The translations under genes were made by a program, and so were the position numbers. The notes beneath the pieces were generated by a model that ran no database searches, was not told where the DNA came from, and saw only the letters and a list, made by a program, of their open reading frames with translations. Shown piece by piece: positions 22,501 through 43,740 of a DNA stretch of 43,740 nt. Where the stretch lies: the IMG/VR virus record IMGVR_UViG_3300009436_002091, positions 1-43,740 of that record; one strand, written 5' to 3'. Source of the DNA: a virus. Each line of letters opens with the position of its first letter. Position 1 is the first letter of the stretch.

Positions 22501-25500
22501 TTAGAAATAGAAGGATCAACAAACTTTAAGGTAGTGCTTACTAATAACGTTACTGATATTGCAGTTAACGATGTAATTGGTATACATAGTTTTAGCAATT
22601 ACATTAACGATTCAACTGTTGATTCTGATGAAGTATTTGATTTAGAAGGATTCTTTGTTGTATCTGCTATAGATAAAAATACAATTACACTTATTAGTGA
22701 AGAAGCACAAGACGAAATTCCACTCTGTACTGGTTCTATAACAAAATTTACTAGTGTACGATCAACTAATATAGATTCTGCAAATACCATAGTACAAAAC
22801 GACCTAGTATTTAATGACTACCTTTGGGTAGATAATATTACTGGCGACAACGAATGGTCGGTACTTAAAAATGATAACTTATTTGCAGAAACATTCCGTA
22901 CATTAAAACCTTCAGCTAATGTTGATGATTCTTTTGGCGAAGCATTAAGTGTTGATGATAGAAATACAACAATGATTGTAGGAGCACCTGATCAAGGCGA
23001 CGGTAAAGTATATGTTTATTCTCGAGCAACTGATTCATTAAATTTTGTACAAACACAAGTTATTGATCCGTTAAAAGTGAGTGATAACAATCAGCGGTTT
23101 GGCACCGCGGTTGCAATTAGTCCAGACGGTGCCTATGTAATTGTAGGATCACCTAATGCTTCGAATGTAAAAACAAAATATGCTCCGGGCGGATTTGTTT
23201 CTGGTACTGATTATACTAAAGGAGCTATTGTTGCTAAAGATCAACAACTTTGGAAAGCAGTAGTTGATATCGAAGGCGCAGAAGCTGCTATTGAATTTAA
23301 CAGTTTCAATTCGATTACTCAAATAGTTGATTCGTTAGATATAGAAAATATTTCAACAGCAACAGTTCCTACAATGGTTGTAGGTAACTATGCAATTAAT
23401 CCAATATCAGGATTGTTAGCATTTGCAAATAATCCAGTAGACCACATGTTAATTAGAGCACCGCTAGAACAATTTGACGGTAGTGGGCTTAATGATCAAA
23501 TTAAACTTAATTGGAATCAAATAACATACTCTAATCAGGACTTAGCTGCACTTGCTGAACGTTCACCATTTAACGGATCGTTTGCTACTATTGATGCAGC
23601 ATTTGTAGAACAGACACATACTATACAACATAAAATTGAAATAGTTTTGTATATTAATTCTTCTACTAACTTACCTCAAGTTAACGATAAATTACAAACA
23701 GAAACAGCATTTGGCACAGTTGTTTATCGTTATGTAGAAGGTAACGAAGTAATAATTTACTTGTCAGCAGTTAACGGTACTTTTTCTAATAGTGATAGTA
23801 TTTTCCGTAGTGACGGTGACTTTATTGGTGAATATGTTAAACAAAATCAAACTGATAGTGTAGATGCAACTCAAAGACTAGGCGGATATTGGTTTATTGA
23901 TACACCAACTTACACACCAACAATTAATTCTGAAAATACAGACGAAGGCAGAGGTTTAGTATTTTATGATGTTATTACTGATAGTACAGACACAAATAGA
24001 AAGTATACTAACTCATTAGATTACAATGCACTAACTATTGATAGCCAAAATACATTTAATGCATACATTGAAAAATTAAGTTATCAAGGCCTACCTGGTG
24101 CTTATGGAAGCAACACTCCATTTTTAAGTAATAAGTTTGTAGTTAGAGCACCTAAAGTAATTAGTGATGCTTATTCAACTGGCAATATAAATTTATATGT
24201 TAATCAATTACCACAGTATGGTACTGGAATAATTAGAGATTTAACAACTATTGGATTAACATCTACTGATACAAACAAATTACAGACAATTGTTGATGTT
24301 TGGGATGGTAAAATTAACTTTAACTACATTGACAAAGATGCCGCTGGTAATTTCTTTGAACCAAAAATAGGTCAAACTGTTAAAGATATACAATCTGGTG
24401 CTACTGCGGTAGTTACATTTTATCAACGCTTTGGTAATAATGCAACAGTGTATGTAGATACTGTAACAGGTACTTGGTCACAAGGTGACTTATATGGACA
24501 AAATGCTCAAATAGGATTCTTAGCAATTCCGGGTGATCCTAGTCCAACATATCAAAGTGATAGAAATATTGGACAAGTTCAGTACGTTAGTTTAGGGTTA
24601 CCGGCCGAAGGTATTGGTAAGCTATTAGTATTTGAAACATTGTCAGATGTTCCAGTAACAGCAACTTCTCAATTACTAGATATTGAATATTGGTTGTATA
24701 GCAGTGGCACAGTTCAAGGTATTCCGAGACCAGCAAGTGTTCCGTCATCAACTAATAACAACTGGACACAAGTATATCAAATTGCTGCTGAAGTATCCGG
24801 AACTGTACCAAGTGTTGACTCGCAAAACGAAGGATTATATTCTATATATACAAGATCTGCTCCAGGCAGATATGATTTGCAAGCAAGTTATACTGTTCCT
24901 GAAAAAGCAGCTGGTCAAAAATTAGGTAGTAGTATAAAAATTACAAAGCATAACAATCTTTATAGAGCCTTTATACATGCTGCTGAAAATTCAACAATTT
25001 CTAGTCCTGGTAGAATTTACTTTATTAAAAAGGGTGTAGAAAACAACATATCCTTTGATTGGGATTATGCAAAGAACAAGAAATTTAAAGGTACATTTAG
25101 TGAAGGTACTACATATTTCACAGATGATATTGTTTATGTTGACATTACTCAGGGTACATTGTATGTAGCAAAGACTAATATTGCACCAGGTGCGTTTAAT
25201 CTAACTGATTGGACTTCAACTGACGACTTAGTTGATTATGTTGGATTTATTCCTAACTCAACTGGCCTTAGTGTTAGAAATGATAGCACAGTTGGAGAAA
25301 CAGTACTTGATCAAGAAGATCTTGCAACGTTTGGCACACAGTTTGATGTATCTAACTCAGGCGAAGTATTAATTACTAATGCTATATATGATGGCGATCC
25401 TAACAAAGTAGTAATTTACAGAAGCAACAACGGACATTTTGAAAGATCACAAGAAATTTTAGCACCAGATTCTACATCAGGCTTTGCTCAGTCAATAGCA

Positions 25501-28500
25501 ATATCATTAGACGGCATGTTAATTGCAATTAGTGCGCCATATAATGATGATTATAAAGCAGATCAGGGAATTGTTTACATATACAAACAAGTTGATGGTG
25601 CATTTGTATTATCGCAATCACTAGCAAGTCCTAGCAATGAAAGAGCTGAAATGTTTGGCTGGAAAGTTGACTTTGATGGCAACAAACTATTTGCATCTGG
25701 TAGAAATACTGATTCTGCATCTAGAACTTACTTTGATGGACAGGCAACTGTATTTGACAAAGGGTTTACTGGATTTCAAACTGTGAATCAAGATGCAGGC
25801 GTTGTATATGTTTACGAAAAAATAGAAAATGAATTATTATTTGCACAAAAAATAGAACTCACTGATGCTGACGTTAATGACTTTGGCCAGCGTATTCTAG
25901 CTAAAGGCAATCATTTATATTCTCCATTGCCTAAGAAAAACACAAATGGTATAATTGGCAGTGTACTAGACTTTGCACTTACTGATAAAACTAAGCCAAT
26001 GTGGGCCACGCATAGAAAATCAAAACCTACAGTAGATATTAACAAAATTAAGAAACTATTCCTTTACAATACTAAGGAAAATGAGTTATTATCGTATATT
26101 GATTATATTGATCCATTACAAGGTAAAGTTGCAGGAGTTGCAGAACAAGAATTAACATTTAAAACTTATTATGATCCAGCACTTTATGATACATCAACAA
26201 TAGCTAATACAATTATTGATGTAACTAATAGTTGGGGCAAAGAACATGTTGGCGAAGTATGGTGGAATTTAACTAATGCTAAATTTTATAATCCATATCA
26301 AGGTGATGTAATTTATAGTACTCAAAATTGGTCAAAAGTATTTGACGGTAATTCTATTGATGTATATGAATGGGTAGAATCACCAGTAATACCTAGTGAA
26401 TGGGACGCTCAAGCAGATACAGAAAATGGCTTTGCAAAAGGATATAGCGGAACTAGTATATACGGCGATACTACTTATAGTACTAAGCGCAAATACGATA
26501 GTGTAGCAGGTTCTTTTACTACAACTTATTACTTCTGGGTAATGAATAAAAAGACAATACCAGAAGTTGAATTTAGAAATATTAGTATTACTGATGTTGC
26601 AGGTTATATTGCTGATCCAGTTGCTAAAGGTTATACTTTTGCTGGATTAATTAGTCCTTCGCAGTTTGTTTTATACAATGCTGAAAAGTTTATTAAAGGT
26701 ACTGACGTTGCCCTAAGCGCACAATTTTGGACTATTGAAAATCAAGACCAAAATATTCATAATCAGTATCAAATTATATCCGAAGGTCTTGAAACAAGTC
26801 AACCTAATGCAGACATTATTAAGAAATGGTATGACAGTTTAATTGGATATGATCAACAATTCCGTATTGTTCCAGATCCAACATTAAGTACTAAACAAAA
26901 ATACGGTGCTCTTAACTCGCCAAGACAAAGTTGGTTTGTAAATCGTGCTGAAGCGTTAAAGCAAGTTGTTGAAAGAACTAACCTTATACTTAAAGAAAAC
27001 TTAATAGTTGATGATAAAATATTTACTAGGTTGTTTAATAACGATCCTGCTCCTACAGCAGTATCAAAACTATGGGACGTAGAAATTGACACAATAGACG
27101 ATTTAGCCTTTGTAGGTGTTGCAAGTGCAACACAAGCAGTACTAAGTCCTGTAGTTATAGACGGAAAAATTGCAAGCGTTAATATTGTTAATCCTGGTAA
27201 AGGATACAGAGTAGCACCTACAGTAACTATAACTGATAATGGTAAAGGAGCAGTACTACAAACTGCAATTGATTCAAAAGGCAAAATTACTTCTGTTAGT
27301 GTTATACAAGCAGGCACTCAATATACTACTACTCCTATATTAACAGTAAGACGATTTACAGTATTAATTAAAGCTGATAGCACAGTACAAGGCAAATGGG
27401 CATTGTATGAAAGAATTAGTGAATCTAAGTCTTGGAATAGAACACAAAGTCAGGGTTACAACGTAAGACTATATTGGGATTATGAAGATTGGTATGCAAC
27501 AGATTACAGTGCGCTAACTGATATTGATTATCTTATTGATAATAGTTATGAGCTAACTGCATTAGATAATACAATTGGCGATGTAGTAAAAATATCTACA
27601 ATTGGCACAGGTGGCTGGTTATTGCTACAAAAAATAGCAAGTGTAGATACTGAAGATTACACAGTTAACTATAAAACTATTGGTAGACAAGATGGTACAA
27701 TACAATTTAAATCTACATTGTATAATACGGCATTATCAAATACTGGATTTGACACAATTAGTTTCGACACAAAAATCTACGACAGCGAGCCAGTAATTGA
27801 ACTTAGAACTATATTAGAATCAATACAAAATGATTTGTTTATTGATGATTTATTAGTTAAATTTAATGCTCTATTCTTTGCAAGTTTAAGATACACATTT
27901 AGTGAACAACCTTATATTGATTGGGCATTTAAGAGTAGCTTTATTAAAGCTAAACATAATGCAGGAACACTAAGAGAAGATATTACATTTAACAATGATA
28001 ATCTTCCAAGTTATGAATCTTATATCAAAGAAGTAAAACCGTTTGCTACTAAAATTAGAGAATATTTAAGTGCATACGAATCACTTGATAATACAAATAC
28101 AGTAACAACTGATTTTGATTTACCTCCTGCATATAATGCTGTTGAGGGGAAAATTATCCCCCAAGACGTTAAAGTACAAGACGGAGTATTAATTGGATCT
28201 AATACTAATCTTGAAACATATCCTAATAAAAATTGGGCAGACAATAGTAGCTACGAAATTGTAAAAGTTGTAGTAGTTAATCCTGGCAAAGGTTATAGAA
28301 GTGCTCCTGTATTAACAGTAAGCGGCACAGGCGGAGCAGTGCTAAAAGCAACTATCGGTACTGATGGCAAAGTGTCTAACGTACAAGTTGTTAATCCAGG
28401 GTCTGGTTATTATACTATGCCTACAATATCTGAATTAAACAACATTACAGATGACGGCGAAGCAGCAACATATAGTTTACAATTAGGTAATGGACCTGTT

Positions 28501-31446: not shown

Positions 31447-31449
31447 ATA
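31442..31449 (+). promoter_or_regulatory. Candidate late promoter before the 204-aa structural gene
   Basis: GATAAATA matches TATAAATA at seven of eight positions. It overlaps the last codons and TAA stop of the giant gene and ends 23 nt before the ATG at 31473. It is followed by CAT, similar to the sites at 13061 and 36103. It would let the fibre genes be transcribed without the 15-kb giant gene. Confidence 0.62.
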
Positions 31450-31472
31450 CATTAAGCAGGATGGTATAAACT

Positions 31473-32087
31473 ATGACAGATAAATTAAATGAACAAAGTG
31501 GTGTGTTACTTCAAGGACACATTAAAATACACAATCCAGAAACTGGGGAAGTTATTGTAGACAAACGCAACGCTATTCATTATGAAAATATGAGTATTAG
31601 TCTTGCAGAAAGTTTAGGCAATGCTGGGACAGGCTGGATTTACCAAATGGGATTTGGTAATGGCGGAACAAGTGTTGACCCGACAGGGATTATTACATAC
31701 TTAACGCCAAACAGCACAGGAACTAATGCTAGTTTATATAATGAAACATTTACAAAAGTTGTAGATGATCGTAGTGTAAACAACTTAGATCCAGCACGTA
31801 ATAAGATTGAAACACGTCACGTAAGTGGTACTAACTATACTGATATTTTAGTAACATGTTTGCTAGATTACAGTGAACCAAACGGTCAAGATGCTTTTGA
31901 TACTGCAACAAATTCAGAAAGTTTATACGTATTTGACGAATTAGGTTTACGAGCATACAGTGCAGACGGAACAGGCAGATTATTAACTCACGTTGTTTTC
32001 CATCCTGTACAAAAATCATTAAACAGATTAATCCAAATTGATTATACTGTTAGAGTACAAAGTTTAACAGGATTTAACGAGGGATAA
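31473..32087 (+). CDS. Conserved structural protein, probably baseplate- or fibre-associated
   Basis: A 204-aa protein between the giant gene and the fibre genes. The N-terminus reads GHIKIHNPETGEVIVDKRNAIHYENMSISLAESLG, followed by IYQMGFGNGGTSVDPTG (about 56-72) and a beta-rich second half with LYVFDELGLRAYS and LLTHVVFHPVQKSLN. I recall this pattern from virion proteins next to fibre genes in marine T4-like phages but know no T4 counterpart by sequence; T4 gp8 to gp11 occupy the comparable map position. It has no signal peptide, Cys cluster or coiled coil. It is preceded by a late promoter overlapping the giant gene stop, and followed 3 nt later by the collar-fibre gene, so it is expressed late with the fibres. 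Confidence 0.55.
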   Translation: MTDKLNEQSGVLLQGHIKIHNPETGEVIVDKRNAIHYENMSISLAESLGNAGTGWIYQMGFGNGGTSVDPTGIITYLTPNSTGTNASLYNETFTKVVDDRSVNNLDPARNKIETRHVSGTNYTDILVTCLLDYSEPNGQDAFDTATNSESLYVFDELGLRAYSADGTGRLLTHVVFHPVQKSLNRLIQIDYTVRVQSLTGFNEG

Positions 32088-32090
32088 TAA

Positions 32091-34196
32091 ATGGCATATA
32101 CAATACAATATACTGATAGTGCTGATAAAGATCCGATCGTAGTTGAAGATCAAACAATCAACACTGTTACTAGTATAAAATTACCAGGCAGAAATAGTAC
32201 AGGATACGGCGCAGCAATTGCTGAAGACTTGTTACACTTACTAGAACATTTTGCAGGCCCAACAGAGCCTTCCAATGCTAGTGAAGGGCAACTTTGGTAC
32301 AACAATACTACATCGCAGTTATTAATTTATGACGGCACTGTTTGGGTTTCAGCAAGTGGACTTAAAAAGAGTTCAACTGAACCTGAAGCTTCGTCTGCAT
32401 TAATCGGCGACTTATGGGCCGATACTGATAATCAACAATTGTATATGTTCACCGGTTCTACTTGGATCTTAGTTGGACCAAGTTTTAGTGCTGGTTTAAC
32501 AACTGGAGCACAACCTAATACTATTACTGGCCAAGATAATATAGATTACACTGTTATTGAAATACAGGTAAGTGCAAATATCGTTGCTATAGTTGCATTT
32601 GACACATTTACACCAAAGTCAACAATTAACGGATTTAGTGGTGTACAAATACGTCCAGGTATAAACTTAGCAAACAGAGATACAGATGCAGACGGAATTA
32701 ACAATGTTAAGTTCTACGGTATTGCAGAAAAGTCAGAAAATTTAATTGTTAACAATCTAGCAATTCCTGCTGCTAACTTTTTAAGAAGCGATGTAGAATC
32801 AACAACTACTTTTCCATTAAACGTTCAAAACAATAGCGGCATTGCATATGGTATTAATGCAGAACTTAATATTGGTATTGAAGGTAGTGCAGGCGTTATA
32901 CAGCATAACATTGCTGGCTCAAACATTGATGTAAGAGTAAGAAACGCAGGAAATAGTAGAACAGTACTTAGAGTTGACAGTAACTTACGAGTAGGTATTA
33001 ATAACGAAGCACCAGATGAAGCACTAGACGTAACTGGCAACTTTTTATCAAGTGGTACAATTACTACAAACGACACTACACAAAGCACAACTATTAGTAA
33101 CGGCGCAGCAGTTATAAAAGGCGGCCTAGGTGTTGCTAAAACAATTAATGTTGGAGATTCAATAGTTGTACAAAAAGGTATAACTTTAGGTAATAACGAT
33201 TTAGTAGTTGATACAGCAGAAAGTGATTTAATATTACCAGACTTGAATAACACAAGAAATATTGGTAGAAGTGACAATCGTTTCCGTAAAATTTATGCAA
33301 CTACGTTTATTGGTACATTAGAAGGTACAGTAAGCGGTAGTGTTACTGGTAGTGCTGGTAGTGCTGACAAACTTACTTCGTCATCTACGTTTAGATATCA
33401 AGGTGATGTAGAAACAGTAGAACAAGTATTTGACGGACAGACAGGCGGCGGAACAAAGACATTTAACCTTACACTAAAGAATACATTAATTAGTGCAAAG
33501 CCAGCAGTATCTAACAGTTTATCAAGCGATGAATTTATAGTAAACAGAACTAGCGGGGTTGATCAAGGCTTAAAGAAAATATCTAGAGCTACGATATTTA
33601 ATAATATTTCAGGGCTAACACCAGTAGGTAGTATTATGCCATATGCTGGACTTATTGAGCCAACTGGATGGAAGTTCTGTAATGGACAAGAACTAAGCCA
33701 AGGTATATATGCACAATTATTTGCATTAGTTGCGCTTTCATATGGACCAACGCCTACTTCGGGCTTCTTTGCTGTTCCAGACTTAAGAGGCAGATTTGCA
33801 TTAGGTAACCTAAACATGGGAGGCTCTACACCAAGTGTAGACACACCAGATACTAGAAACAGAGGATCAAACGCAGGCGTAGTAGGAGCAGTTGATGGAT
33901 CAGATGGTGTTACTATTGGTACAGATAATTTACCAGAACACGATCATGATTTAAAATCTCCGACAGGGCAGCAATTTTATGCTCATAGAGAAGTTGACGG
34001 TAGAGGAGATCTTCCAGATGGAACATCAGGATCTAGTTTACAAACAGGTGCAGAAAATTTATCACAGAGACTATCTAACAGCGGCGGAGTTGTAATTCCT
34101 GCAGATGCTACATATAGTACTGTTGGAGCAGAAATGAATATAATGAATCCATTCCAAACTATTAATTATATTATCTATACAGGAGTAGTAGGATGA
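32091..34196 (+). CDS. Tail fibre protein with gp12-type collar domain
   Basis: A 701-aa fibre-type protein. Residues 1-130 are the N-terminal module shared with the next two genes: IKLPGRNSTGYG, LLEHFAGPTEPSNASEGQLWY, IYDGTVW and GDLWADT. A beta-rich shaft follows, with sequence like that of phage fibre shafts near 310-430. The C-terminal 190 residues are a phage tail-collar domain: GSIMPYAG, PTGWKFCNGQELS, VPDLRGRFALG, NLPEHDHD and a closing MNIMNPFQTINYIIYTG. The H-D-H pattern matches the metal-binding receptor tip of T4 gp12. It probably binds the host surface as a short fibre. The last 4 nt overlap the next gene (ATGA), and it starts 3 nt after its neighbour. Confidence 0.82.
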   Translation: MAYTIQYTDSADKDPIVVEDQTINTVTSIKLPGRNSTGYGAAIAEDLLHLLEHFAGPTEPSNASEGQLWYNNTTSQLLIYDGTVWVSASGLKKSSTEPEASSALIGDLWADTDNQQLYMFTGSTWILVGPSFSAGLTTGAQPNTITGQDNIDYTVIEIQVSANIVAIVAFDTFTPKSTINGFSGVQIRPGINLANRDTDADGINNVKFYGIAEKSENLIVNNLAIPAANFLRSDVESTTTFPLNVQNNSGIAYGINAELNIGIEGSAGVIQHNIAGSNIDVRVRNAGNSRTVLRVDSNLRVGINNEAPDEALDVTGNFLSSGTITTNDTTQSTTISNGAAVIKGGLGVAKTINVGDSIVVQKGITLGNNDLVVDTAESDLILPDLNNTRNIGRSDNRFRKIYATTFIGTLEGTVSGSVTGSAGSADKLTSSSTFRYQGDVETVEQVFDGQTGGGTKTFNLTLKNTLISAKPAVSNSLSSDEFIVNRTSGVDQGLKKISRATIFNNISGLTPVGSIMPYAGLIEPTGWKFCNGQELSQGIYAQLFALVALSYGPTPTSGFFAVPDLRGRFALGNLNMGGSTPSVDTPDTRNRGSNAGVVGAVDGSDGVTIGTDNLPEHDHDLKSPTGQQFYAHREVDGRGDLPDGTSGSSLQTGAENLSQRLSNSGGVVIPADATYSTVGAEMNIMNPFQTINYIIYTGVVG

Positions 34197-36097
34197 GCTA
34201 TAAAATAAACAAAACTAATGGCGCATTGCTAGTAGAGCTAACTGATGGTATAATTGATATAACATCTACTGATATTACTTTAGTAGGTAAAAATTACAAA
34301 GGATTTGGAGAAGCATTTAACGAAAACTTTGTTAAAATTATTGAAAATTTTGCAGCAACTAGTGCGCCAAGCAATCCGTTAACTGGGCAGCTTTGGTTTG
34401 ACACTAGTGAAAATAGATTAAAGATTTATGACGGAGTTAGTTTTAAAACATCTGGCTCACCGGCAGTAAGTGCTACACAGCCAAACAATTTAGTAGCAGG
34501 TGATCTTTGGATTGATAATGAAGAAAATAAATTATACTTCTTTGACGGCACTGATATAGTACTTGTTGGCCCAGAGTATACTGCAACACAAGGAAAAACA
34601 GGACTTGAAGCAGTTACAATGGTTGATACTAGTAACCAAATTAGAACTGTACTAGCTATGTATATAGGCGGAGTACTTGCTGGAATATACAGTAGATTTG
34701 AATTTACTCCTGCGACAGATTATGTTATACTTCCTTATGTTGCTGGCAGAATTATAAAAGTTGGATTTAATCCAAGTGTAGTTGCAGATTTTAAATGGAA
34801 CGGAACAGCAGCCGCAGCTGAAGCATTAACCGATGCTTCTGGATCATCTTTTACAACAGCAGACTTTGTAAGAACTAATGAACGAGACGAATCAAATGCT
34901 TTAGTAGATCAAGTTATGGATGCTGGATTATTTGTTAAGGGCGACCAAGGATTAACTGTTGGATACGGTGATACTGAATATGCTGCATTAAAAACAATCG
35001 ACAGTGGTACTACAACAGCTTTAGAATTAAAGCAATTGAATTATGACTTTGCTATTAGAGTACCGCAAGGAAACGATTTTATAGAAGCATTTACACTTGA
35101 TACAAGTACTCAACGAATAGGTATATATCAATCTGCACCAACCGCAGCATTAGATGTAACAGGTGATGGTAAATTTACAGGTAACCTTACTATCGGCGGC
35201 AACATGACAATTCAAGGTACAACAACGTCTATTGATGTGCAAACATTTAGAGTTCAAGATCCTAATATTGAATTAGGATTATTAGATGATAGTACTGAAG
35301 GCGATGATACTAATGCTAATGGCGGCGGTATAACACTACGTTCAAGTAACGGTAGTAAAGATATTAGTTGGGTGCAATCAACAGGTAATTGGACATTTAA
35401 TCAAAATGTAGACTTAATTCAAGGCAAAGAATTTAGGATTCAAAATACACAAGTACTTTCTAAAATAAAACTAGGTGATTCGGTAGCAACTGCTAACGGC
35501 CTAACTAGCATAGGTACATTAGGTACATTAAGTGTTACTGGCAATACAGCAGTAGGAAGTCTTAGTTCACCAAATGCACTTACTATAACTTCAAATGGAC
35601 CTATCGATGTTAATAACCAAAGAATTTCAACTTTAGCAACACCTTCTGTTTCGGCAGATGCTGCTAACAAAGGTTATGTTGACGATCAATTAGCAAGTAG
35701 TACAATTCCGTTGACACTAGATATTACAGGGTTTACTACTCCAAATGCAGCAGGAGTTAGTGCAGGTCCAATTACTGATGTTGCAGCAGTTTTACAAAGT
35801 ATAAGTCCGGCAGCGACTAAATTAAACGGAACAATTGCTAATATTCACTGTACAAGTTATGCTAACTCTGCGGTTACAGGTATTAACGTAACAGTGTCAA
35901 CTGATAATTCAGGAGTATTGCAAAAGTCTACTATTGCAGTTGATGCAGCAGGAACACAAAACGAATCAGTAATACAAGACATTGCAGCAGCAAACACTGC
36001 ATCAGGTATTGTAAATCTATCTCCAAATAGATACACAATGATATTCACAGTATCGGGTTCAGTATGGACCCATACTTCTACAGCTAGTTATCCGTAA
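34193..36097 (+). CDS. Fibre-like structural protein, paralogue 2
   Basis: A 634-aa protein whose first 130 residues repeat the module of the preceding gene: ITLVGKNYKGFGEAFNENFVKIIENFA, GQLWFDTSENRLKIYDG, GDLWIDNEENKLYFFDG and VLVGPEY. A second shared stretch (about 145-165) has the pattern LAMYIGGVLAGIYS. A shaft-like middle includes GDGKFTGNLTIGGNMTIQGTTTS and a trimer-like segment near 350-410. The C-terminal 150 residues (ending WTHTSTASYP) differ from those of both neighbours and lack a collar domain. AGGAG lies 7 nt before the ATG, which overlaps the upstream stop. A fibre or fibre-anchor role is inferred from the shared N-module and position; the tip function is unknown. Confidence 0.65.
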   Translation: MSYKINKTNGALLVELTDGIIDITSTDITLVGKNYKGFGEAFNENFVKIIENFAATSAPSNPLTGQLWFDTSENRLKIYDGVSFKTSGSPAVSATQPNNLVAGDLWIDNEENKLYFFDGTDIVLVGPEYTATQGKTGLEAVTMVDTSNQIRTVLAMYIGGVLAGIYSRFEFTPATDYVILPYVAGRIIKVGFNPSVVADFKWNGTAAAAEALTDASGSSFTTADFVRTNERDESNALVDQVMDAGLFVKGDQGLTVGYGDTEYAALKTIDSGTTTALELKQLNYDFAIRVPQGNDFIEAFTLDTSTQRIGIYQSAPTAALDVTGDGKFTGNLTIGGNMTIQGTTTSIDVQTFRVQDPNIELGLLDDSTEGDDTNANGGGITLRSSNGSKDISWVQSTGNWTFNQNVDLIQGKEFRIQNTQVLSKIKLGDSVATANGLTSIGTLGTLSVTGNTAVGSLSSPNALTITSNGPIDVNNQRISTLATPSVSADAANKGYVDDQLASSTIPLTLDITGFTTPNAAGVSAGPITDVAAVLQSISPAATKLNGTIANIHCTSYANSAVTGINVTVSTDNSGVLQKSTIAVDAAGTQNESVIQDIAAANTASGIVNLSPNRYTMIFTVSGSVWTHTSTASYP

Positions 36098-36102
36098 CTT
36101 GC

Positions 36103-36110
36103 GATAAATA
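36103..36110 (+). promoter_or_regulatory. Candidate late promoter before fibre paralogue 3
   Basis: GATAAATA, seven of eight to the T4 late consensus, followed by CTA. It starts 5 nt after the stop of the preceding gene and ends 25 nt before the ATG at 36136. It shares its flank GCGATAAATAC almost exactly with the site at 31442 (CGATAAATAC). Confidence 0.65.
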
Positions 36111-36135
36111 CTAGCAACAAGGGGTTATTTAAAAT

Positions 36136-37641
36136 ATGGCGTATACAATTAACAAATATAACACTGATCAATTAACTATTGTACAAGACGGTACGTTAGA
36201 TCAGACAACAGACATTAAGCTAGTTGGTAAGAACTATGCAGGTTATGGTGAAATACAAAACGAAAATTTTGTATTCTTACTTGAAAACTTTGCTGGTGCT
36301 AATCAACCACCAAGAGCAGTACAAGGACAAATTTGGTTTGATAATGCAAACAGCAAACTAAAATTTAACGATGGTACTAAATGGCGCACAACAGGCGGCG
36401 CAGAAATTAGTGCTACTGCTCCTGCAGGATTAGCAACTGGTGATTTTTGGTGGGATACTACTAACGAGCAACTATATTCATATAATGGCGCAGACTTTGT
36501 ATTAATTGGCCCACAAGATGCTGGATCAGGTATTACACAGATGCAAAGTAAGTCAGTTAGAGACACTAGCTTAGTATCTAGAAGCGTTATTGCAGCTACA
36601 GTTAATGACGAAGTAGTATTTATAATTAGCCCAATACAGTTTACAATTGATAGCGGAGATGCTGAAAATACAATTTCAGGATTTGATGTTATACAATCTG
36701 GCGTAACCCTTAAAAATACACTTAGCGCATCTGGTGGCGTTACTAGTGGAACACAAAGATTCTACGGTACTGCAACTAACAGTGAAAAACTTAACGGACT
36801 ATCAGCAAGTAACTATGTTACTGCTACACCAGGATCGCCTAGTGTGTTTACTGAAATTACAAACTTTCAAACTGATGCAGGTATTGCAATTGGTGCAGGA
36901 TTAGATTTAAAAATCTTTATTGAAAATGATAATCAAGGTGTTATTAGTAATGCCCAAGGCGACGAAATACGTTTTCGTGCTAAACAAGCCGGTGGATTGC
37001 TTAAAAACATTGTAACAATGAAACCTGGTATACTAAAGCCAGGCATGAATGCAGCTAATACAGCAGTTGAAACAGTATCACTTGGTGATGCTGATAACTT
37101 ATTTTCAGCAGTACACGCTACTAACATTTATGGTACTTCAGAAAAAGCAAGTGCTCTTTTAGTAGGCGGTACAGCAAGAGTTGGCGCAGTTAACACTATT
37201 GGCACAGGTAGTAGTAATACTGTTGCAGTGCGTGATGGCGCAGGTAACTTAAATGCAGTATTATTCCAAGGTACTGCAACAAGCGCACGTTATGCTGACC
37301 TTGCAGAAAAATACACAACAGCAGAAGAACTTCCAGCAGGAACAGCAGTTGCAGTAGGCGGCGAAGCAGAAGTGCAGCCAGCAAGTGCAAGCAATCACTG
37401 TATTGGTGTTGTTTCAACTGATCCAGCATATATGATGAATAGTGATATTGACGGACAATATATTGGTCTTAAAGGACGTCTTCCAGTAAGAGTATCTGGA
37501 GTTGTTAAAAAAGGCCAAGCAGTATACGCTTTAGAAAATGGCGTGTGTACAACACTAGCAACAACTGCTCTAGTTGGCGTTGCACTTGAGTCAAGTGACG
37601 ATGCAAACGAAAAACTAATCGAGTGCGTATTAAAAGTATAA
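36136..37641 (+). CDS. Fibre-like structural protein, paralogue 3
   Basis: A 501-aa protein with the same N-terminal module as the two upstream genes: IKLVGKNYAGYGEIQNENFVFLLENFAG, GQIWFDNANSKLKFNDG, GDFWWDTTNEQLYSYNG and FVLIGPQ. The shaft is shorter (about 160-395). The C-terminal 110 residues begin ARYADLAEKYTTAEELPAGTAV and continue with GVVSTDPAYMMN, GLKGRLPVRVSG and VKKGQAVYAL. This C-terminal domain type is found at the ends of many phage fibre proteins; its exact role is not known to me. A GGGG-containing ribosome site lies about 11 nt upstream, and a late promoter lies between this gene and the previous one. With its two paralogues it forms a family with a common base and exchanged ends. 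Confidence 0.66.
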   Translation: MAYTINKYNTDQLTIVQDGTLDQTTDIKLVGKNYAGYGEIQNENFVFLLENFAGANQPPRAVQGQIWFDNANSKLKFNDGTKWRTTGGAEISATAPAGLATGDFWWDTTNEQLYSYNGADFVLIGPQDAGSGITQMQSKSVRDTSLVSRSVIAATVNDEVVFIISPIQFTIDSGDAENTISGFDVIQSGVTLKNTLSASGGVTSGTQRFYGTATNSEKLNGLSASNYVTATPGSPSVFTEITNFQTDAGIAIGAGLDLKIFIENDNQGVISNAQGDEIRFRAKQAGGLLKNIVTMKPGILKPGMNAANTAVETVSLGDADNLFSAVHATNIYGTSEKASALLVGGTARVGAVNTIGTGSSNTVAVRDGAGNLNAVLFQGTATSARYADLAEKYTTAEELPAGTAVAVGGEAEVQPASASNHCIGVVSTDPAYMMNSDIDGQYIGLKGRLPVRVSGVVKKGQAVYALENGVCTTLATTALVGVALESSDDANEKLIECVLKV

Positions 37642-37644
37642 ATA
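37637..37644 (+). promoter_or_regulatory. Late promoter, perfect TATAAATA
   Basis: An exact match to the T4 late promoter TATAAATA. It overlaps the TAA stop of the preceding fibre gene and ends 26 nt before the ATG at 37671, with AAAGAGGA as ribosome site in between. It is the strongest late-promoter match in the window. Confidence 0.75.
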
Positions 37645-37670
37645 TACGTAGTTAATAAAGAGGATAAATT

Positions 37671-38588
37671 ATGGCAGTTAATGTAGGTCAATCGATCGGT
37701 GAAGCAGAATATACAACCTTAAGAACGGGTATTAATCTTGTTATGGGTACACCAACAGGAACAGGCACTGCGGCAGCGGGCTATAATTTAGCAACGTCGG
37801 CAGCAGCTAGAGGACCAGCAGATAAAATACAAGCTGCTGACTGGAATGCACTTAAAGCAGATACTGATAAAGCATATGTACACCAAACAGGTAACGCCAT
37901 TAGTCCTGCACTAGCTACTGTTAATACTGACAGTTCGATTACAAAGGTAATACACGATGCGCTCGAAACTGCAATCAACTTTGTTAAGACTGACGGGCAG
38001 CGATTTAATTTAGCTGCTGGACAATCTACTACAACATCTGCACGTTCTAAAGGTAAAACTAACTGGAACGGAACACAAATACATGATGTTACATTTACTT
38101 GGGCAAGTTCAAACGCAGCAAAAGCATTTTTTAATGCAGGCGGACGTCTAAGAATTGCTACTACGTTGTCCTATTCAGGGTCAGAGGCAAAAACTTTAGA
38201 CTGGCAAACAATGGTAGCTGACACTTCTGTTATTGCTATTAATTATGTTAGTGCATTTAAAGAAAGCGGCACTGGCGGTACTATTAGTGCTAACGATGGT
38301 TACTATGATATTAATGGCACTGAAAGAGAATTATATACTCGAGGTGGCGCAAGTCCTTACTCAGAAAACAACTATAGAGTTCTAGCAAGATCGATTACTA
38401 ACGGTCTTCGTATCCGTGTACTGTATGAAGATAATGATGCAGGCGATCAAACTGGTACAGGCGCAGCAGTTGACGAAAATGTACAAGGTACTTTAACTAG
38501 TGCATTATCGTATGTACGTGCTACAGGCACAAATGTAGAAGTTACAGCACCGACTATTTCAACTGGCGACACAAATACTTTCACATAA
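37671..38588 (+). CDS. Fibre/virion structural protein of marine T4-like phages
   Basis: A 305-aa protein with an N-terminal region reading EYTTLRTGINLVMGTPTGTGTAAAGYN and then QAADWNALKADTDKAYVHQTG (about 56-76). The pattern of a short helix, G-T-G loop and W-N-x-L-x-x-D helix ending H-Q-T-G is one I associate with cyanophage and pelagiphage virion proteins. The C-terminal two thirds is a beta-sandwich-like region: KTNWNGTQIHDVTFTW, AKAFFNAGGRLRIAT, and a Gly/Thr-rich end. No catalytic motif is visible. It is the last virion gene before the sigma70 promoter of the next module, and has a perfect late promoter and a good ribosome site. Adsorption or particle-surface roles are plausible but unproven. 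Confidence 0.58.
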   Translation: MAVNVGQSIGEAEYTTLRTGINLVMGTPTGTGTAAAGYNLATSAAARGPADKIQAADWNALKADTDKAYVHQTGNAISPALATVNTDSSITKVIHDALETAINFVKTDGQRFNLAAGQSTTTSARSKGKTNWNGTQIHDVTFTWASSNAAKAFFNAGGRLRIATTLSYSGSEAKTLDWQTMVADTSVIAINYVSAFKESGTGGTISANDGYYDINGTERELYTRGGASPYSENNYRVLARSITNGLRIRVLYEDNDAGDQTGTGAAVDENVQGTLTSALSYVRATGTNVEVTAPTISTGDTNTFT

Positions 38589-38591
38589 CAC

Positions 38592-38620
38592 TTGACATCT
38601 AGCAGGTTTTAGTATATACT
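38592..38620 (+). promoter_or_regulatory. Sigma70-type promoter for the glycosyltransferase/radical SAM module
   Basis: TTGACA (38592-38597) and TATACT (38615-38620) are 17 nt apart, lying 4 nt after the stop of the last structural gene and about 26 nt before the ATG at 38646. The -35 is a perfect consensus. The -10 lies inside the first GTATATAC palindrome. The following genes should therefore be transcribed by host polymerase without late sigma factor. Confidence 0.8.
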
Positions 38621-38634
38621 ATAACAGTATATAC
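38611..38634 (+). repeat. Two GTATATAC palindromes overlapping the -10 region
   Basis: The self-complementary octamer GTATATAC occurs at 38612-38619 and 38627-38634, 15 bp from centre to centre. The first covers the -10 box; the second lies in the start-site/leader region just before AAGGAG. As DNA they could be paired operator half-sites. As RNA the two copies can pair to form an 8-bp stem with a 7-base loop, immediately 5' of the ribosome site. Confidence 0.55.
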
Positions 38635-38645
38635 AAGGAGCCATA

Positions 38646-38993
38646 ATGGACGAACGACTAGAAAAAGCATTGGAGTTTTCTAACTTCTTAGAAACTCAAA
38701 ATAATCAAAAAAGTATTTTCCTAAAACAGTATTACGATAATTTAGTTCATTATGTAGATGGACATAAGATATCTGTAACCACTGATCTAATCAGTTTCTG
38801 TCAAAGTATGCTTGCATTAGAACAAGACGAAACTATATTGTTAGATGATAATAATACTCCGTTTAATGTGACGTTGTTGAAAGACTTTACAAGAGAAATA
38901 CTCGGAGTATATACTTTTGCGTCTCGAAAGTACGCATATGACTATGCAAAGATTAAAAAGAACAGAAGCGTTGAAGGGTTAACTAATCTATGA
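38646..38993 (+). CDS. Conserved small phage protein, unknown function
   Basis: A 115-aa, mostly helical, charged protein beginning MDERLEKALEFSNFLETQNNQK (quoted in part: MDERLEKALEFSNFLETQ). It has a short beta-like middle (HKISVTTD) and a stretch ILLDDNNTPFNVTLLKDF at about 76-93. I believe proteins with the MDERLEKALEFSN start recur in marine T4-like phages, but I know no function. AAGGAG is 5 nt before the ATG, the best ribosome site of the module, so it may be the most strongly made protein of the set. It is first in a coupled operon, its stop overlapping the first glycosyltransferase start (ATGA). Confidence 0.6.
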   Translation: MDERLEKALEFSNFLETQNNQKSIFLKQYYDNLVHYVDGHKISVTTDLISFCQSMLALEQDETILLDDNNTPFNVTLLKDFTREILGVYTFASRKYAYDYAKIKKNRSVEGLTNL

Positions 38994-39841
38994 ATAATGG
39001 CGTAGTGTTATTTGCATTTAATAACGGGCGTATTGATTATATTAAGCAAGCAATTTATTGTGCAAAGCGTATAAAAGAGTATTTAAAACTTCCTGTACAA
39101 CTTATTACTAATGATAAAGAATATATTGAAAGTAATTTTACTTTTTATAAAAAATATATTGATGAAGTTACACATTGTGATGCACCGGTATCGTCTACTA
39201 AAACATTTCACAACGGCATTTATGCAAACAAAGGTAAGATTAAGTGGATTAATTCAGCAAGGGATTCTGCATACGAATTATCTATATTTGAAAAAACATT
39301 AGTAATAGACACTGACCTATTAATTAGTAATGATAAATTATTAACGTGCTTTGACACGCCCGAAGACTTTATGATTGCTAAAGATTATCATATGGTCAAT
39401 ACACAAAAGCATTACCCTAGTCTTGATAGAATTAGCGACAAGTCGATACCTATGTACTGGGCAACTATTTTATACTTTACTAAAAGTAATACAGCAAGAA
39501 CAGTATTTGACACAGTGCAGCACATTAAAGAAAATTATAGCTATTACAGATTAACATATGATATTGTTGAAACAAAATTTAGAAATGATTTTGCTTTTAG
39601 TATTGCAGTACACATGATGCGTGGCTTTGTTGAAGATAGTAATTGGCCAATGTCAGTTCCGTCTGATATGTGGGTATCGATTGATAAAGACGTATTAGTA
39701 GATATAAAAGATAACAGCATACAGTTATTAACACAGCGTGACTATGATTATCTAGCAGTTAAATTAACAGACGCTACAACACACATAATGAATAAATTTA
39801 GTTTAGATAAATTTATCGATACGGAGTTTGCTAATGAGTAA
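38990..39841 (+). CDS. Glycosyltransferase-like protein, type A copy 1
   Basis: A 283-aa protein with a GT-A-like layout: a first strand VVLFAFNNGRIDYIKQAIYCAKRI (residues 5-28, read in parts), PVQLITND at about 35-42, and a strand leading to LVIDTDLLI with a D-T-D motif at 107-109, the usual nucleotide-sugar/metal site. Later it has MYWATILYFTKS, a feature consistent with the acceptor-side sheet of small glycosyltransferases. The next gene is a clear paralogue. The start overlaps the 115-aa gene as ATGA. No signal or membrane segment is present, so it acts in the cytoplasm. The substrate is unknown; surface sugars, DNA bases or a virion protein are all possible. Confidence 0.62.
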   Translation: MNNGVVLFAFNNGRIDYIKQAIYCAKRIKEYLKLPVQLITNDKEYIESNFTFYKKYIDEVTHCDAPVSSTKTFHNGIYANKGKIKWINSARDSAYELSIFEKTLVIDTDLLISNDKLLTCFDTPEDFMIAKDYHMVNTQKHYPSLDRISDKSIPMYWATILYFTKSNTARTVFDTVQHIKENYSYYRLTYDIVETKFRNDFAFSIAVHMMRGFVEDSNWPMSVPSDMWVSIDKDVLVDIKDNSIQLLTQRDYDYLAVKLTDATTHIMNKFSLDKFIDTEFANE

Positions 39842-40658
39842 TGGTATATGTCTTGTTGCACAAAATAATTCAACAACAGATTATATTAGACAAGCATATG
39901 CGCTTGCATTAAGTGTGCTTGCAAAAAGTCCACGAACAAATATAAGTTTAATTACTAACGACGAAGTACCAGCTACGTATAAGTCTGTATTTGATAAGAT
40001 TATATCTATACCCTGGGGCGACCTAGCTGAAAAAAGTGAATGGAAAATAGATAACCGTTGGAAAGTATATTATGTAACACCTTATGAAAATACATTAGTA
40101 TTTGATGTTGATATGCTAGTACTAGATAATATTAGTTCTACTTGGCAAAGTTTTAGAAATAATCATTCTTTATTGTTTACTAAAAATGTTACTACATATA
40201 GAAATGAATTAGTGACATCGCGATATTACAGGAAAACTTTTGATGCAAATAATTTACCTGATGTATATTCAGGAATGTATCAATTTACTAAGTGTGAAGA
40301 AACTGCAAACTTTTATAAGTTATTAGATATTATTATGCAAAACTGGCAAGTATTTTATGAAAAATATACTCCTAACAGTTTGCAAAAATGGTGTAGTGTT
40401 GATGTAAGTATTGCAATTGCTTTAAAGATATTAGATATGCATGGTTATTGTTTAGATAAAAGTCCAATGTCATTTACTCATATGAAGACTCATATACAAA
40501 ATGTAAAACAACCGCAGTCTAAATGGACAGACATGCTACCTGTAGATTATAACGATGGCATTTATATTAACGGCTACAAACAATCCGGCGTGTTACATTA
40601 TGTTGAAGACGAATTTTTAACAAACGACATGTTAGCCTGGTTAGAGGAAAAAGTATAA
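39834..40658 (+). CDS. Glycosyltransferase-like protein, type A copy 2
   Basis: A 274-aa paralogue of the preceding protein: ICLVAQNNSTTDYIRQAYALAL at the N-terminus, NISLITNDEVP at about 36-46, and LVFDVDMLVLDN with a D-V-D motif at 91-93. Further shared pieces are YSGMYQFTK in the middle and a C-terminal helix rich in acidic residues. The ATG at 39834 overlaps the previous stop by 8 nt (ATGAGTAA) and has GGAG 7 nt upstream; an in-frame TTG at 39828 is too close to the ribosome site. Divergence from copy 1 is considerable outside the motifs, so the two probably act on different donors or acceptors. The stop overlaps the next ATG as TAATG. Confidence 0.64.
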   Translation: MSNGICLVAQNNSTTDYIRQAYALALSVLAKSPRTNISLITNDEVPATYKSVFDKIISIPWGDLAEKSEWKIDNRWKVYYVTPYENTLVFDVDMLVLDNISSTWQSFRNNHSLLFTKNVTTYRNELVTSRYYRKTFDANNLPDVYSGMYQFTKCEETANFYKLLDIIMQNWQVFYEKYTPNSLQKWCSVDVSIAIALKILDMHGYCLDKSPMSFTHMKTHIQNVKQPQSKWTDMLPVDYNDGIYINGYKQSGVLHYVEDEFLTNDMLAWLEEKV

Positions 40659-41191
40659 TGTTTTATATACACTATGACGAAAACGGTAATATAAATTCAG
40701 TTGCTAATCATAATGATACTGAATTGTGGATAGAAACTACACAAGAAATATTTGATGATTTTTCTTTTGGACGTAAGCACTTTCATGAATATATAATGGT
40801 TGAAGATATTCGAGTAAAAGGAAAAATGCATCTTGTATCTACAACTTATATTGAAGAAGGTAATACAGCACACACTACTGGCCCTATAATTCGTGCCGAT
40901 AGATTAGACTCTGGCATTCAGCTTATACAGAATAATGAATCGTGGACTGTAAATAACTTCATAGACGATGAAACATGTACTAGCCTATCTATCGGCGATA
41001 ACCATATTAAGGAATACTATATTGTAGATGCAACTAATAGGTTTATATTATTTGATAAATTTACTTTAGATTTAAAAGATTTCATACACACTGACAGCAT
41101 TGAAATACAAGGATGTTCGTCAACTAAGAATGTGTCTGTTGTCACTCGTAGTAGTCATATACCACATGTACATACAGTAGGAAAACTATAA
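40658..41191 (+). CDS. Unknown protein within the glycosyltransferase module
   Basis: A 177-aa protein I do not recognise. It starts MFYIHYDENGNINSVANHND, has a beta-rich composition with many Asp, Ile and Thr, and contains WTVNNFIDDETCTSLSIGDNH (about 95-115, in parts). The end is Ser/Val/His-rich (VVTRSSHIPHVHTVGKL). No signal peptide, membrane segment, coiled coil or cofactor motif is visible. Start and stop both overlap neighbours as TAATG, so it is made in fixed proportion with the glycosyltransferases. It could be a chaperone, a modified substrate or a sugar-processing protein; nothing in the sequence decides. Confidence 0.55.
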   Translation: MFYIHYDENGNINSVANHNDTELWIETTQEIFDDFSFGRKHFHEYIMVEDIRVKGKMHLVSTTYIEEGNTAHTTGPIIRADRLDSGIQLIQNNESWTVNNFIDDETCTSLSIGDNHIKEYYIVDATNRFILFDKFTLDLKDFIHTDSIEIQGCSSTKNVSVVTRSSHIPHVHTVGKL

Positions 41192-42084
41192 TGAAAATAA
41201 TCGATCAAGACATAATATTTTTAAGTTATGACGAACCAAACGCTGAAGAAAACTATGCAGACTTATTAACCAAAGTGCCTTGGGCAAAACGTGTACACGG
41301 AGTTGAAGGCAGTGATGCTGCACATAAAGCCTGTGCTAGATTAAGTGAAACTGAAAACTTTGTTACTATTGACGGCGACACTATTATTGATCCTAAGTTT
41401 TTAGAAGTAGAATTAGATTTAGAAAAACTAAATGCAACTCCAGAGTATCAGTTTAGTTGGGCAGGTAAGATCGACGTTAACGGATTAATGTACGGCAACG
41501 GCAGTATTAAAATGTGGACTAGAGACTTTGTAAAAAATATGAGGACACACGAAAATACAGACGGATCAGACGAAACTAATATTGAATTTTGTTACTTTGA
41601 CAACTACTTACAACTTAATGAAAATTATAGTACAAGTATTATAAGTTCAACGCCGCAACAAGCGTGGCGAGCAGGATTTCGTGAAGGTGTAAAAATGTCT
41701 TTAAATAGAGGCAAGCCTATTGAAGACTTAAAATCAGTATGGTGGCAAAATTATAATAGACTATTAATATGGACTATGATTGGTTCGGATGTTAATAACG
41801 GCATATGGTCTATACTTGGTGCTCGTGAAGGTGTCTTTAAAACAATGTGTACAGATTGGGATCATGTACAAGTACGTGACTTTACATATCTAAATAGTTT
41901 ATGGAACGAAAAACAACAAATTGAAACAACTGATGAAGATATATTAGAAGCAGTTGAAGTATTAGGAGACCATTTAATTTCAGAATTAGGATTGCCGATT
42001 GCCCAACGCCCGTTAGATATACAACAAAGCAAGTTCTTTAAAACAATATATGTTCCTAACCTAAGAAATGTAAAACTTAAATGA
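41191..42084 (+). CDS. Glycosyltransferase-like protein, type B copy 1
   Basis: A 297-aa protein with IIFLSYDEPNAEENYADLL at the N-terminus, PWAKRVHGVEG at about 30-40, and FVTIDGDTIID with a D-G-D at 61-63. Then come GLMYGNGSIKMWT and a long C-terminal helical part with VWWQNYNRLLIWTMIGSDV. The order of strand, basic loop, D-x-D and Y-G-N-G is consistent with a GT-A fold, though I assign it with less certainty than the type A pair. The partial gene at 43433 is a clear paralogue, sharing S-Y-x-E, AKRxHGV and YGNG. The stop overlaps the radical SAM start as ATGA, which links the two functions. Substrate unknown. Confidence 0.58.
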   Translation: MKIIDQDIIFLSYDEPNAEENYADLLTKVPWAKRVHGVEGSDAAHKACARLSETENFVTIDGDTIIDPKFLEVELDLEKLNATPEYQFSWAGKIDVNGLMYGNGSIKMWTRDFVKNMRTHENTDGSDETNIEFCYFDNYLQLNENYSTSIISSTPQQAWRAGFREGVKMSLNRGKPIEDLKSVWWQNYNRLLIWTMIGSDVNNGIWSILGAREGVFKTMCTDWDHVQVRDFTYLNSLWNEKQQIETTDEDILEAVEVLGDHLISELGLPIAQRPLDIQQSKFFKTIYVPNLRNVKLK

Positions 42085-43433
42085 CCGCTGATAGATTTCA
42101 AGTAGACAATCAAGAAACAAAAGACTTTTTAAATAATGTAGGTTGTGGATTTTGTCTAGCTAAATGGACACAAGTAACTATACATTTAGCATCTGGGCTT
42201 ACGCACAGTTGTCATCATGTTGGCGCACACAAAATACCTTTAGAAGAACTAAAAGACAATCCTTCTGCATTGCATAACACTAAACAAAAAAAGATGCGTA
42301 GAAAAGAAATGTTAGATGGTAAGCGTCCAGACGAGTGTGATTACTGTTGGCGTATTGAAGATAACACAAATGAGTTTAGTGACAGGATACTTAAAAGTGC
42401 ATCTAATTGGAGTCAAATAGACAAAGACGTAATTGCAACATCAACAGGTGACGAAGACATTTATCCTAGAGCAGTTGAAGTTAGCTTTAGTAACGTGTGT
42501 AATTTTAAGTGTGCATACTGTGGCCCGGCATTTAGTAGCAAGTGGACTGAAGAAATTAAAGCAGAGGGCCCGTATAAACTTCATCAGAAGCCGTATAATG
42601 CTATTAAGACACACGAAGTTCCTATTCCTGAACGTGATGAAAATCCTTATATTGAAGCATTTTGGAAATGGTTTCCGGACGCAGTTACTCATATGCATAC
42701 ATTCCGTATTACGGGCGGTGAGCCATTACTAAGTAAGCATACATTTAAAGTTATGGATTATTTACTAGAAAATCCACAACCTAAATTAAACTTTGCAATT
42801 AATACAAACGGATGTCCGCCTGATGCCTTATGGGATAAGTTTTTACAAAAAGTAAAGCTATTAGAAGATACTAATTCTGTAGGCAGGTTTACTATATTTG
42901 TAAGTGCTGAAAGCACAGGTGCGCAAGCTGAGTATAGTCGTGACGGCATGGACTGGGATTTATTCACAACCAATGTTGAAAGTTTACTTGCTAATACTAA
43001 TGAAGTTATAGTTTCGTTTATGAGTGCATTTAATATTTTAAGTTTACCTACACTTTCTAATTATATTAGGTATGTACGAAAATTAAAGCGTACATATAGA
43101 CATAGTCGACGTATAAAAATTGATTTTGCATATGTAAGACATCCTGAGTTTTTAGATATTAAAATAGCATCAAAAGAACTAATTGAAAAATATTTAACGC
43201 CGGCTATCAAGTATATGCAGATGGGAGAATACGATGATTGGGAAACTAAAAAATTAGTAAGAATCTATGAAGACTGCGAATCTCGTTTTAATAATCTTTT
43301 AAGTGAAAGTGTTGCAACAGACAAGTATAGATTTTATCAGTTTACAAAACAATACGATGCTCGCAGAGGTAAAAACTTTACTGAAGTGTTTCCTGAATTT
43401 AAAGATTTTTTAAAAGAGTATGAGGACAAGTAA
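42081..43433 (+). CDS. Radical SAM protein, twitch type, with N-terminal cysteine cluster
   Basis: A 450-aa radical SAM enzyme. The 4Fe-4S motif CNFKCAYC lies at 140-147 (Cys140, 144, 147), and the SAM-binding RITGGEPLL has its GGE at 212-214. Before this, Cys22 and Cys25, Cys44, and Cys86 and Cys89 in DECDYCW look like the ligands of an auxiliary cluster in an N-terminal SPASM/twitch-type region, as in the twitch-domain radical SAM proteins of marine phages and bacteria. The C-terminal 200 residues are helical and charged. Such enzymes generate a 5'-deoxyadenosyl radical to modify peptides, sugars or other substrates; the target here is unknown. It lies between two paralogous glycosyltransferase-like genes with ATGA and TAATG junctions, so a joint pathway is likely. 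Confidence 0.86.
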   Translation: MTADRFQVDNQETKDFLNNVGCGFCLAKWTQVTIHLASGLTHSCHHVGAHKIPLEELKDNPSALHNTKQKKMRRKEMLDGKRPDECDYCWRIEDNTNEFSDRILKSASNWSQIDKDVIATSTGDEDIYPRAVEVSFSNVCNFKCAYCGPAFSSKWTEEIKAEGPYKLHQKPYNAIKTHEVPIPERDENPYIEAFWKWFPDAVTHMHTFRITGGEPLLSKHTFKVMDYLLENPQPKLNFAINTNGCPPDALWDKFLQKVKLLEDTNSVGRFTIFVSAESTGAQAEYSRDGMDWDLFTTNVESLLANTNEVIVSFMSAFNILSLPTLSNYIRYVRKLKRTYRHSRRIKIDFAYVRHPEFLDIKIASKELIEKYLTPAIKYMQMGEYDDWETKKLVRIYEDCESRFNNLLSESVATDKYRFYQFTKQYDARRGKNFTEVFPEFKDFLKEYEDK

Positions 43434-43740
43434 TGTATGATATTATTTTTATAAGTTATAATGAAGCGCAAGCTGATGATAGTTGGAAAACTCTTAAAGA
43501 TAGATTTCCTTATGCTAAACGTATACACGGTGTAAAAGGTATTCACCAAGCACATATAGAAGCAGCAAAGGTTGCTGTTACTGATATGTTATGGATTGTT
43601 GATGCTGATGCTATTGTACTCGATAGTTTTGATTTTAGTTATATTCCAGATATTACTAATCAAGACACTGTTCATGTGTATACAAGTATAAATCCTATTA
43701 ATGGATTAGAATACGGCAATGGCGGAGTGAAGTTATTTCC
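43433..43740 (+). CDS. Glycosyltransferase-like protein, type B copy 2 (cut by window end)
   Basis: An open frame begins at an ATG overlapping the radical SAM stop (TAATG) and runs off the window after 102 codons. It starts MYDIIFISYNEAQADDSW, has PYAKRIHGVKG at about 26-36, WIVDADAIVLD with a D-A-D at 57-59, and GLEYGNGGVKLF at 91-102. Each of these blocks matches the protein at 41191-42084 in order and spacing, so it is a paralogue. The GT-A-type call rests on the same evidence. The 3' end is outside the window and the total length cannot be stated. Confidence 0.7.
   Translation, partial: MYDIIFISYNEAQADDSWKTLKDRFPYAKRIHGVKGIHQAHIEAAKVAVTDMLWIVDADAIVLDSFDFSYIPDITNQDTVHVYTSINPINGLEYGNGGVKLF

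Follow-up and report, generated by a model that had tools for sequence, protein, structure and literature searches.

A conserved glycosyltransferase-like gene block with an exchangeable radical SAM slot beside the fibre genes of uncultured T4-superclade phages

The IMG/VR virus record IMGVR_UViG_3300009436_002091, analysed here over its full 43,740 bases (the window), is a fragment of a T4-superclade myophage and ends in a block of seven overlapping genes on the plus strand (positions 38646-43740). Comparison with related phages indicates that this block combines a fixed core of putative glycosyltransferases (GTs) with a slot in which a radical S-adenosylmethionine enzyme (rSAM) is exchanged from phage to phage. 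We tentatively read it as a fixed glycan-assembly core served by exchangeable tailoring enzymes, acting most likely on the host envelope. Within this reading, glycosyl transfer by the transferases of the block is highly probable, and the chances that the rSAM acts on the same product are about even. In the paper library searched, no published description of the block was found.

All seven genes proposed in the initial annotation are present as open reading frames, the last one interrupted by the end of the contig. The block opens with s115 (38646..38993), which encodes a small protein of 115 amino acids (aa). Next come GTA1 (38990..39841, 283 aa), a putative GT8/glycogenin-like enzyme of GT-A type according to its conserved residues and a weak profile match to glycogenin, and its paralogue GTA2 (39828..40658), which has 276 aa when read from a TTG codon and more likely starts at the ATG at 39834. 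They are followed by u177 (40658..41191), a fast-evolving protein of 177 aa that lacks an enzyme signature, and by GTB1 (41191..42084, 297 aa), a predicted GT-A-fold transferase and the best-conserved gene of the block. The rSAM, an N-twitch enzyme of 450 aa recognised by PF04055 and NF033640, is encoded at 42081..43433, the exchangeable slot. GTB2 (43433..43740), a short GTB1 paralogue, runs for 102 aa until the contig end and is 221 aa long in the sister contig L002. Overlaps had been estimated at 1-8 nt and measure 1, 4 or 8 nt, the 8-nt value resulting from the start at ATG 39834. The two paralogue pairs are real and correspond to the families GTA and GTB. The label "GT type B" should not be taken to mean the GT-B fold, since both types of transferase appear to have the GT-A fold with a DxD motif.

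Relatives were collected by anchored scans of the best 80 loci each, with flanks of at most 10 kb and with some contigs present in more than one set. In the first scans, anchored on the rSAM and on GTB1, both GTA genes, GTB1 and an rSAM occurred together in 117/117 loci. Linkage in loci found through these anchors may be a matter of ascertainment; therefore, the scan was repeated with s115 and with the third fibre gene (TF3) as anchors. All 105 untruncated relatives had the order s115-GTA1-GTA2-u177-GTB, a conservation far beyond chance. The gene s115 stood at the head of the block in every relative examined. Terminators within the block were not in excess over those in shuffled sequences.

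Pairwise identity matrices, compared with no correction for shared ancestry or linkage, gave correlations of r 0.81-0.92 among s115, GTA1, GTA2 and u177. The values for GTB1 (r 0.41-0.60) and the rSAM (r 0.42-0.69) point to histories other than that of the rest of the block. The overlaps had originally been taken as a sign of one pathway, an idea that scattered or independently varying genes would contradict. The core is never scattered, and a common pathway is plausible for its transferases, but the rSAM varies independently and behaves as swappable cargo. The seven genes as a single unit are ruled out by the exchange of the rSAM between relatives.

The rSAM matches NF033640 (N_Twi_rSAM) with 321.3 bits over 394 of 398 positions, the curated cut-off being 170. 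The motifs C140xxxC144xxC147 and GGEP (212-215) and Cys 25, 44, 86 and 89 are conserved; these cysteines, which include all the cluster-binding ones, are kept in at least 97% of 78 slot sequences. By its sequence, the enzyme is a full member of N_Twi_rSAM. To our knowledge, no reaction has been assigned to this family. Among 68 distinct loci, 53 have a strong match to the rSAM subtype of the window within seven genes. The remaining 15 carry another rSAM subtype, a GTB1-GTB2 fusion of 535-890 aa, or other genes. A sister phage contig, L239, is 79% identical in DNA to the window over 28653-41894 (13 kb), diverges near the end of GTB1 and continues with a different rSAM (529 aa) and other genes. 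In two further relatives (L083 and L084) GTB1 is 82-83% identical to that of the window and the rSAM only 41-44%. The tree of slot rSAMs is polyphyletic, with several separate clades, some of them beside Bdellovibrionota sequences. Because the subtype is absent from 15/68 loci, several clades occupy the slot and the gene is replaced in a sister phage, the sequence comparison places the rSAM in an exchangeable slot behind a fixed transferase core.

The cassettes behind the block encode a UDP-sugar dehydrogenase, a DegT aminotransferase, a carbamoyltransferase, a nitroreductase and further rSAMs; in a Pfam search of 20 cassette representatives, about half received no convincing name. Each large viral relative contains between 2 and 11 N-twitch rSAM matches. 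The richest record (contig L294, region 142860-161671) has eleven, mainly clustered within about 20 kb, and others have 8-9.

The evidence for glycosyl transfer comes from conserved residues in GTA and from the predicted fold of GTB1. GTA1 conserves D107xD109, R198, D200, D234, H265 and K269, and GTA2, a member of the same family, conserves D93xD95, D192 and H257. Thus, like GT8 enzymes, both carry the DxD metal motif (D107/D109 and D93/D95), and GTA1 has a late His/Lys pair. The only PDB family matched by the GTA1 profile was glycogenin (glycogenin-1), a weak match at E 0.066. Unlike in GT8, the C-terminal HxxGxxKPW motif is incomplete: GTA1 has H265-xxx-K269 (HIMNK), lacking the G and the PW, and GTA2 retains the His. 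The structure predicted for GTB1 has a predicted local distance difference test score (pLDDT) of 89 and a predicted template modelling score (pTM) of 0.88. In a Foldseek search of the PDB, 16/16 matches at E<=0.001 belonged to the nucleotide-diphospho-sugar transferase superfamily (probability 0.96-1.00, E about 1e-4 to 1e-3, TM-score 0.27-0.38 of the query). Among them were the PBCV-1 capsid glycosyltransferase, SunS, TarP and WrtF, and also nucleotidyltransferases. The model of GTB1 is therefore assigned to the nucleotide-diphospho-sugar (GT-A) fold. The DxD motif is conserved as D61xD63 in GTB1 and D57xD59 in GTB2, and the large viral relatives have exactly two GTB genes each.

Glycan assembly is the reading that best suits the four intact-looking transferases, the rSAM and the many sugar-tailoring enzymes of the cassettes. 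In the proposed mechanism, the transferases would build a short glycan in the host cytoplasm during infection, starting in this phage at the early or middle stage. The rSAM and the cassette enzymes would act on a sugar or on the completed glycan by dehydrogenation, epimerisation, deoxygenation or C-C chemistry, with u177 and s115 possibly serving as scaffold or acceptor-binding partners. A phage-specific decoration of the envelope could mask receptors from competing phages.

The promoter class of the block bears on where such a glycan would be placed. A sigma-70-type promoter, TTGACA-17-TATACT (11/12), lies at 38592..38620 on the plus strand, between the genes w305 and s115 and 25 nt upstream of the first start codon of the block. 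It ranked first of 57 promoter-like candidates in 31-43.7 kb. Two more 11/12 sites in the window are found at the starts of the gp55 and SbcD genes, on the minus strand. Among 145 distinct relatives, a sigma-70-type site (at least 10/12) precedes the block in 97, against 3.9 expected, and the late box ATAAATA in 3, against 7.0 expected. The figures for TF3 are 1/144 for the sigma-70-type site and 137/144 for the late box ATAAATA (T4-type). In the window, late boxes are present before TF3 (GATAAATA at 36103-36110) and at w305 (TATAAATA at 37637-37644). When a looser rule was used for the -35 hexamer (98 sigma-70-type sites in total, n=145), 92 relatives had the sigma-70 site only, 36 TAAATA only, 6 both and 11 neither. 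From these sequence elements, the block is most likely a separate transcription unit, of early/middle type in the window. On the evidence of the promoter classes, the idea that the block is generally expressed late, together with the fibres, was rejected for most relatives.

This promoter class, together with published precedent, favours the host envelope. Pelagimyophage host recognition clusters are rich in GT8, some have rSAM cassettes, and they have been read as altering the host O-chain (PMC7029224); in one group of marine jumbo phages, 76% have lipopolysaccharide genes (PMC9123017). We regard the envelope as a possible target, at somewhat less than even chances, and several observations weigh against it and against the glycan-assembly reading as a whole. 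GTA and GTB reached no Pfam cut-off and had no Pfam GT8 match, another difference between GTA1 and GT8. The Foldseek TM-scores of GTB1 are low and its fold is common to nucleotidyltransferases. The 36/145 relatives whose block has a TAAATA box of late type but lacks a sigma-70 site show that early expression does not hold throughout. Nothing in the block was recognised as a trans-membrane protein, a flippase or a lipid-carrier transferase. The membrane flippase and membrane GT of Gtr-type O-antigen modification were not found, as no 19-residue hydropathy window of the block proteins exceeded 1.6 (highest 1.39). Finally, the conservation of the transferases even among divergent phages is easier to reconcile with an acceptor encoded by the phage than with host glycans, which vary.

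The last point leads to a close rival, decoration of the virion, in which the transferases would add a sugar, rSAM-modified in some phages, to tail-fibre or adhesin proteins (w305 or u177 itself) and thereby alter adsorption or stability. Conservation of the transferases, co-evolution of w305 and the phage-specific partners of the enzymes favour it, as does the invariant position of the block behind the fibre genes. The neighbour w305 (37671..38588, plus strand), an S/T-rich presumed fibre or adhesin protein, correlates with s115, GTA1, GTA2 and u177 at r 0.74-0.87, and its values for GTA1 (0.85) and u177 (0.87) are as high as those for the other fibres, but physical linkage alone may raise such co-evolution. 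The late-type box of the 36 relatives is in keeping with this rival; two thirds of the relatives, the window included, instead have the sigma-70-type site and not the structural late box. In its favour, a transferase involved in PBCV-1 capsid glycosylation is among the best fold matches of GTB1. Against it, Paride, a cultured relative of the phage chassis, has fibres at the same site and no such enzymes annotated. On balance, virion decoration is possible, at somewhat lower odds than the envelope.

The two non-enzymatic partners, s115 and u177, lack a catalytic signature. For s115, no Pfam, NCBIfam or consistent PHROG family and no solved relative were found; there was no relative outside this phage group and none in the cultured phages searched. 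Its PHROG matches were scattered and at chance level, and its identification as a known phage protein was rejected. The mean identity of u177 is 0.25, compared with 0.45-0.61 for its neighbours in the block. Its predicted structure (pLDDT 88) has a fold also seen in three phage proteins without known function and with no PDB counterpart in the structure search. On this result and the conservation of only two positions, G10 and L131, the reading of u177 as an enzyme was rejected. In about 9/154 relatives u177 has at least 400 aa and carries a CBM5/12-like insert, which also speaks for the virion as the site of decoration. This insert, repeated in long variants of 434-447 aa (L315, L295, L388, L169), is confined to the u177 family and one GTA2 gene (L300), at Pfam E 0.009-0.03; it is weak evidence and was not accepted as showing that u177 belongs to the virion.

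An improbable alternative is that the rSAM-rich island makes an antibiotic- or cofactor-like natural product, a small molecule or peptide, which the transferases glycosylate. The accumulation of as many as 11 N-twitch rSAM matches within a single viral record would suit it, as would the peptide S-glycosyltransferases SunS and ThuS among the fold matches of GTB1. It would also suit one examined Bdellovibrionota locus, where the rSAM relative is close to PqqD and a SPASM rSAM. However, the invariant part of the block is the transferases, not the rSAM, and the block yielded no recognisable precursor peptide, RRE/PqqD domain, protease or exporter. A small peptide had also been suggested as substrate in the initial annotation; this is not supported, as s115 and u177 seem unlike precursor peptides and no PqqD/RRE Pfam match, as in the maturation of ribosomally synthesised and post-translationally modified peptides, was obtained for the block. 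The same annotation named phage DNA, which would be glycosylated against restriction. By analogy with T4, DNA glycosyltransferases would need an early/middle-type promoter, and one of this type is predicted at the block. Nonetheless, this target is very unlikely: the genes are located in the fibre region, the matches are to protein, polysaccharide and nucleotide transferases rather than to T4 DNA glucosyltransferases, and a thymidylate-synthase/dCMP-hydroxymethylase family match, as in T4-type DNA glucosylation, was found in 0/7 large viral relatives (126-268 kb, possibly fragments).

The window also contains the chassis genes SbcC/SbcD (gp46/47-like), the late sigma factor gp55, baseplate genes and gp6. 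The order leading to the block is gp6, a 4953-aa structural protein, w15 and the fibre-type genes. The structural protein is encoded by a single gene (16585-31446), and parts of it have matches among jumbo-phage proteins annotated as virion structural or chitin-binding. The neighbours of the block include three genes of tail-fibre type (701, 634 and 501 aa; 32091..37641, plus strand) with PHROG tail/virion matches. The third protein (36136-37641) has a C-terminal match to a Peptidase_G2-like autoproteolytic chaperone. The phage is an uncultured, mostly marine, jumbo-type member of the T4 superclade, and its closest cultured chassis relatives are the jumbo phages Sinorhizobium Phosso, Agrobacterium Atu_ph07 and PA5oct-like Pseudomonas phages. 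The sister contig L002/L238 is 88% identical in DNA up to the end of the window. Beyond that point, it encodes the full GTB2, an SGNH-like protein, an unnamed 289-aa protein and a SPASM-like fragment, and further on another rSAM and a DegT aminotransferase (names assigned by eye or from family representatives).

Relatives of GTA1, GTB1 and s115 were absent from the cultured phages of the collection searched, and the rSAM had only matches of 21-24% identity, in jumbo Vibrio phages. Its nearest cellular relatives (mostly 36-46% identical) are almost all from Bdellovibrionota metagenome-assembled genomes (MAGs) and, unlike the phage enzyme, lie outside any such block. Several N_Twi_rSAM genes, including tandem copies, occur per Bdellovibrionota MAG (L162-L237), and they are interleaved with phage slot rSAMs in the tree, which suggests gene exchange or a host link. 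In one Bdellovibrionota locus the rSAM is accompanied by GT4 transferases, a carbamoyltransferase, PqqD, a SPASM rSAM and an ABC-2 exporter; relatives of these neighbours were found in 5-25 of 73 bacterial loci (13-21 for the GT4s, carbamoyltransferase and ABC-2 exporter). The complete block was also found on contigs of 153 kb and 335 kb (L169, L170) binned as a Neomarinimicrobiota MAG. These are presumably phage contigs, and the binning is a possible host lead or a possible mis-binning.

The locus shares several features with pelagimyophage and cyanomyophage host recognition clusters, which are large variable islands of the structural region beside the tail fibres. The layout is the same, with fibres, GTs and an rSAM behind a giant structural gene. 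In the published clusters GT8 is the commonest glycosyltransferase, and two genomes differ by rSAM cassettes (PMC7029224). Unlike the hypervariable region described there, the present locus combines a core of five invariant genes with a promoter of its own and a defined slot for exchange. As a right border, the neck gene gp14 (PF11649) was matched in 0/8 records and in no control either. Phosso (PV764938) and Atu_ph07 share homologous gp6, giant structural protein, w15 (52-57% identical) and fibre genes with the window. At the same site, directly behind the fibre and after a terminator-like hairpin (seen by eye), Phosso has a cupin and four rSAM genes (L397:16508-24775); genes of the same layout are present, unannotated, in Atu_ph07. 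In contrast to the window, no gene of the block was found in Phosso, and its rSAMs do not match the profile of the block rSAM.

GTs and rSAM cassettes were already known as variable content of host recognition clusters (PMC7029224); the invariant core, the separate promoter and the exchange slot are new. These observations lead to a speculative proposal, which we hold with low confidence, that the locus is a glycoconjugate system specific to phages. Its unchanging transferase core, together with the phage-only proteins s115 and u177, may accept interchangeable rSAM tailoring enzymes, with up to 11 N-twitch rSAMs in one phage. Sister phages would then display chemically different radical-modified glycans on the host or the virion, as a chemical identity that can be swapped and is tied to the adhesin gene. 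The rSAMs of marine phages, so far listed as unexplained auxiliary genes (PMC7150976, PMC7029224), gain a defined place, a slot behind a fixed transferase block with its own promoter at the receptor-binding locus. What was an auxiliary gene of unknown use becomes a testable question of which acceptor and which sugar, and cultured Phosso, whose rSAM cassette occupies the corresponding site, makes the locus accessible. Since N_Twi_rSAM is a family for which we know of no reaction, the phage operon may offer a route to one.

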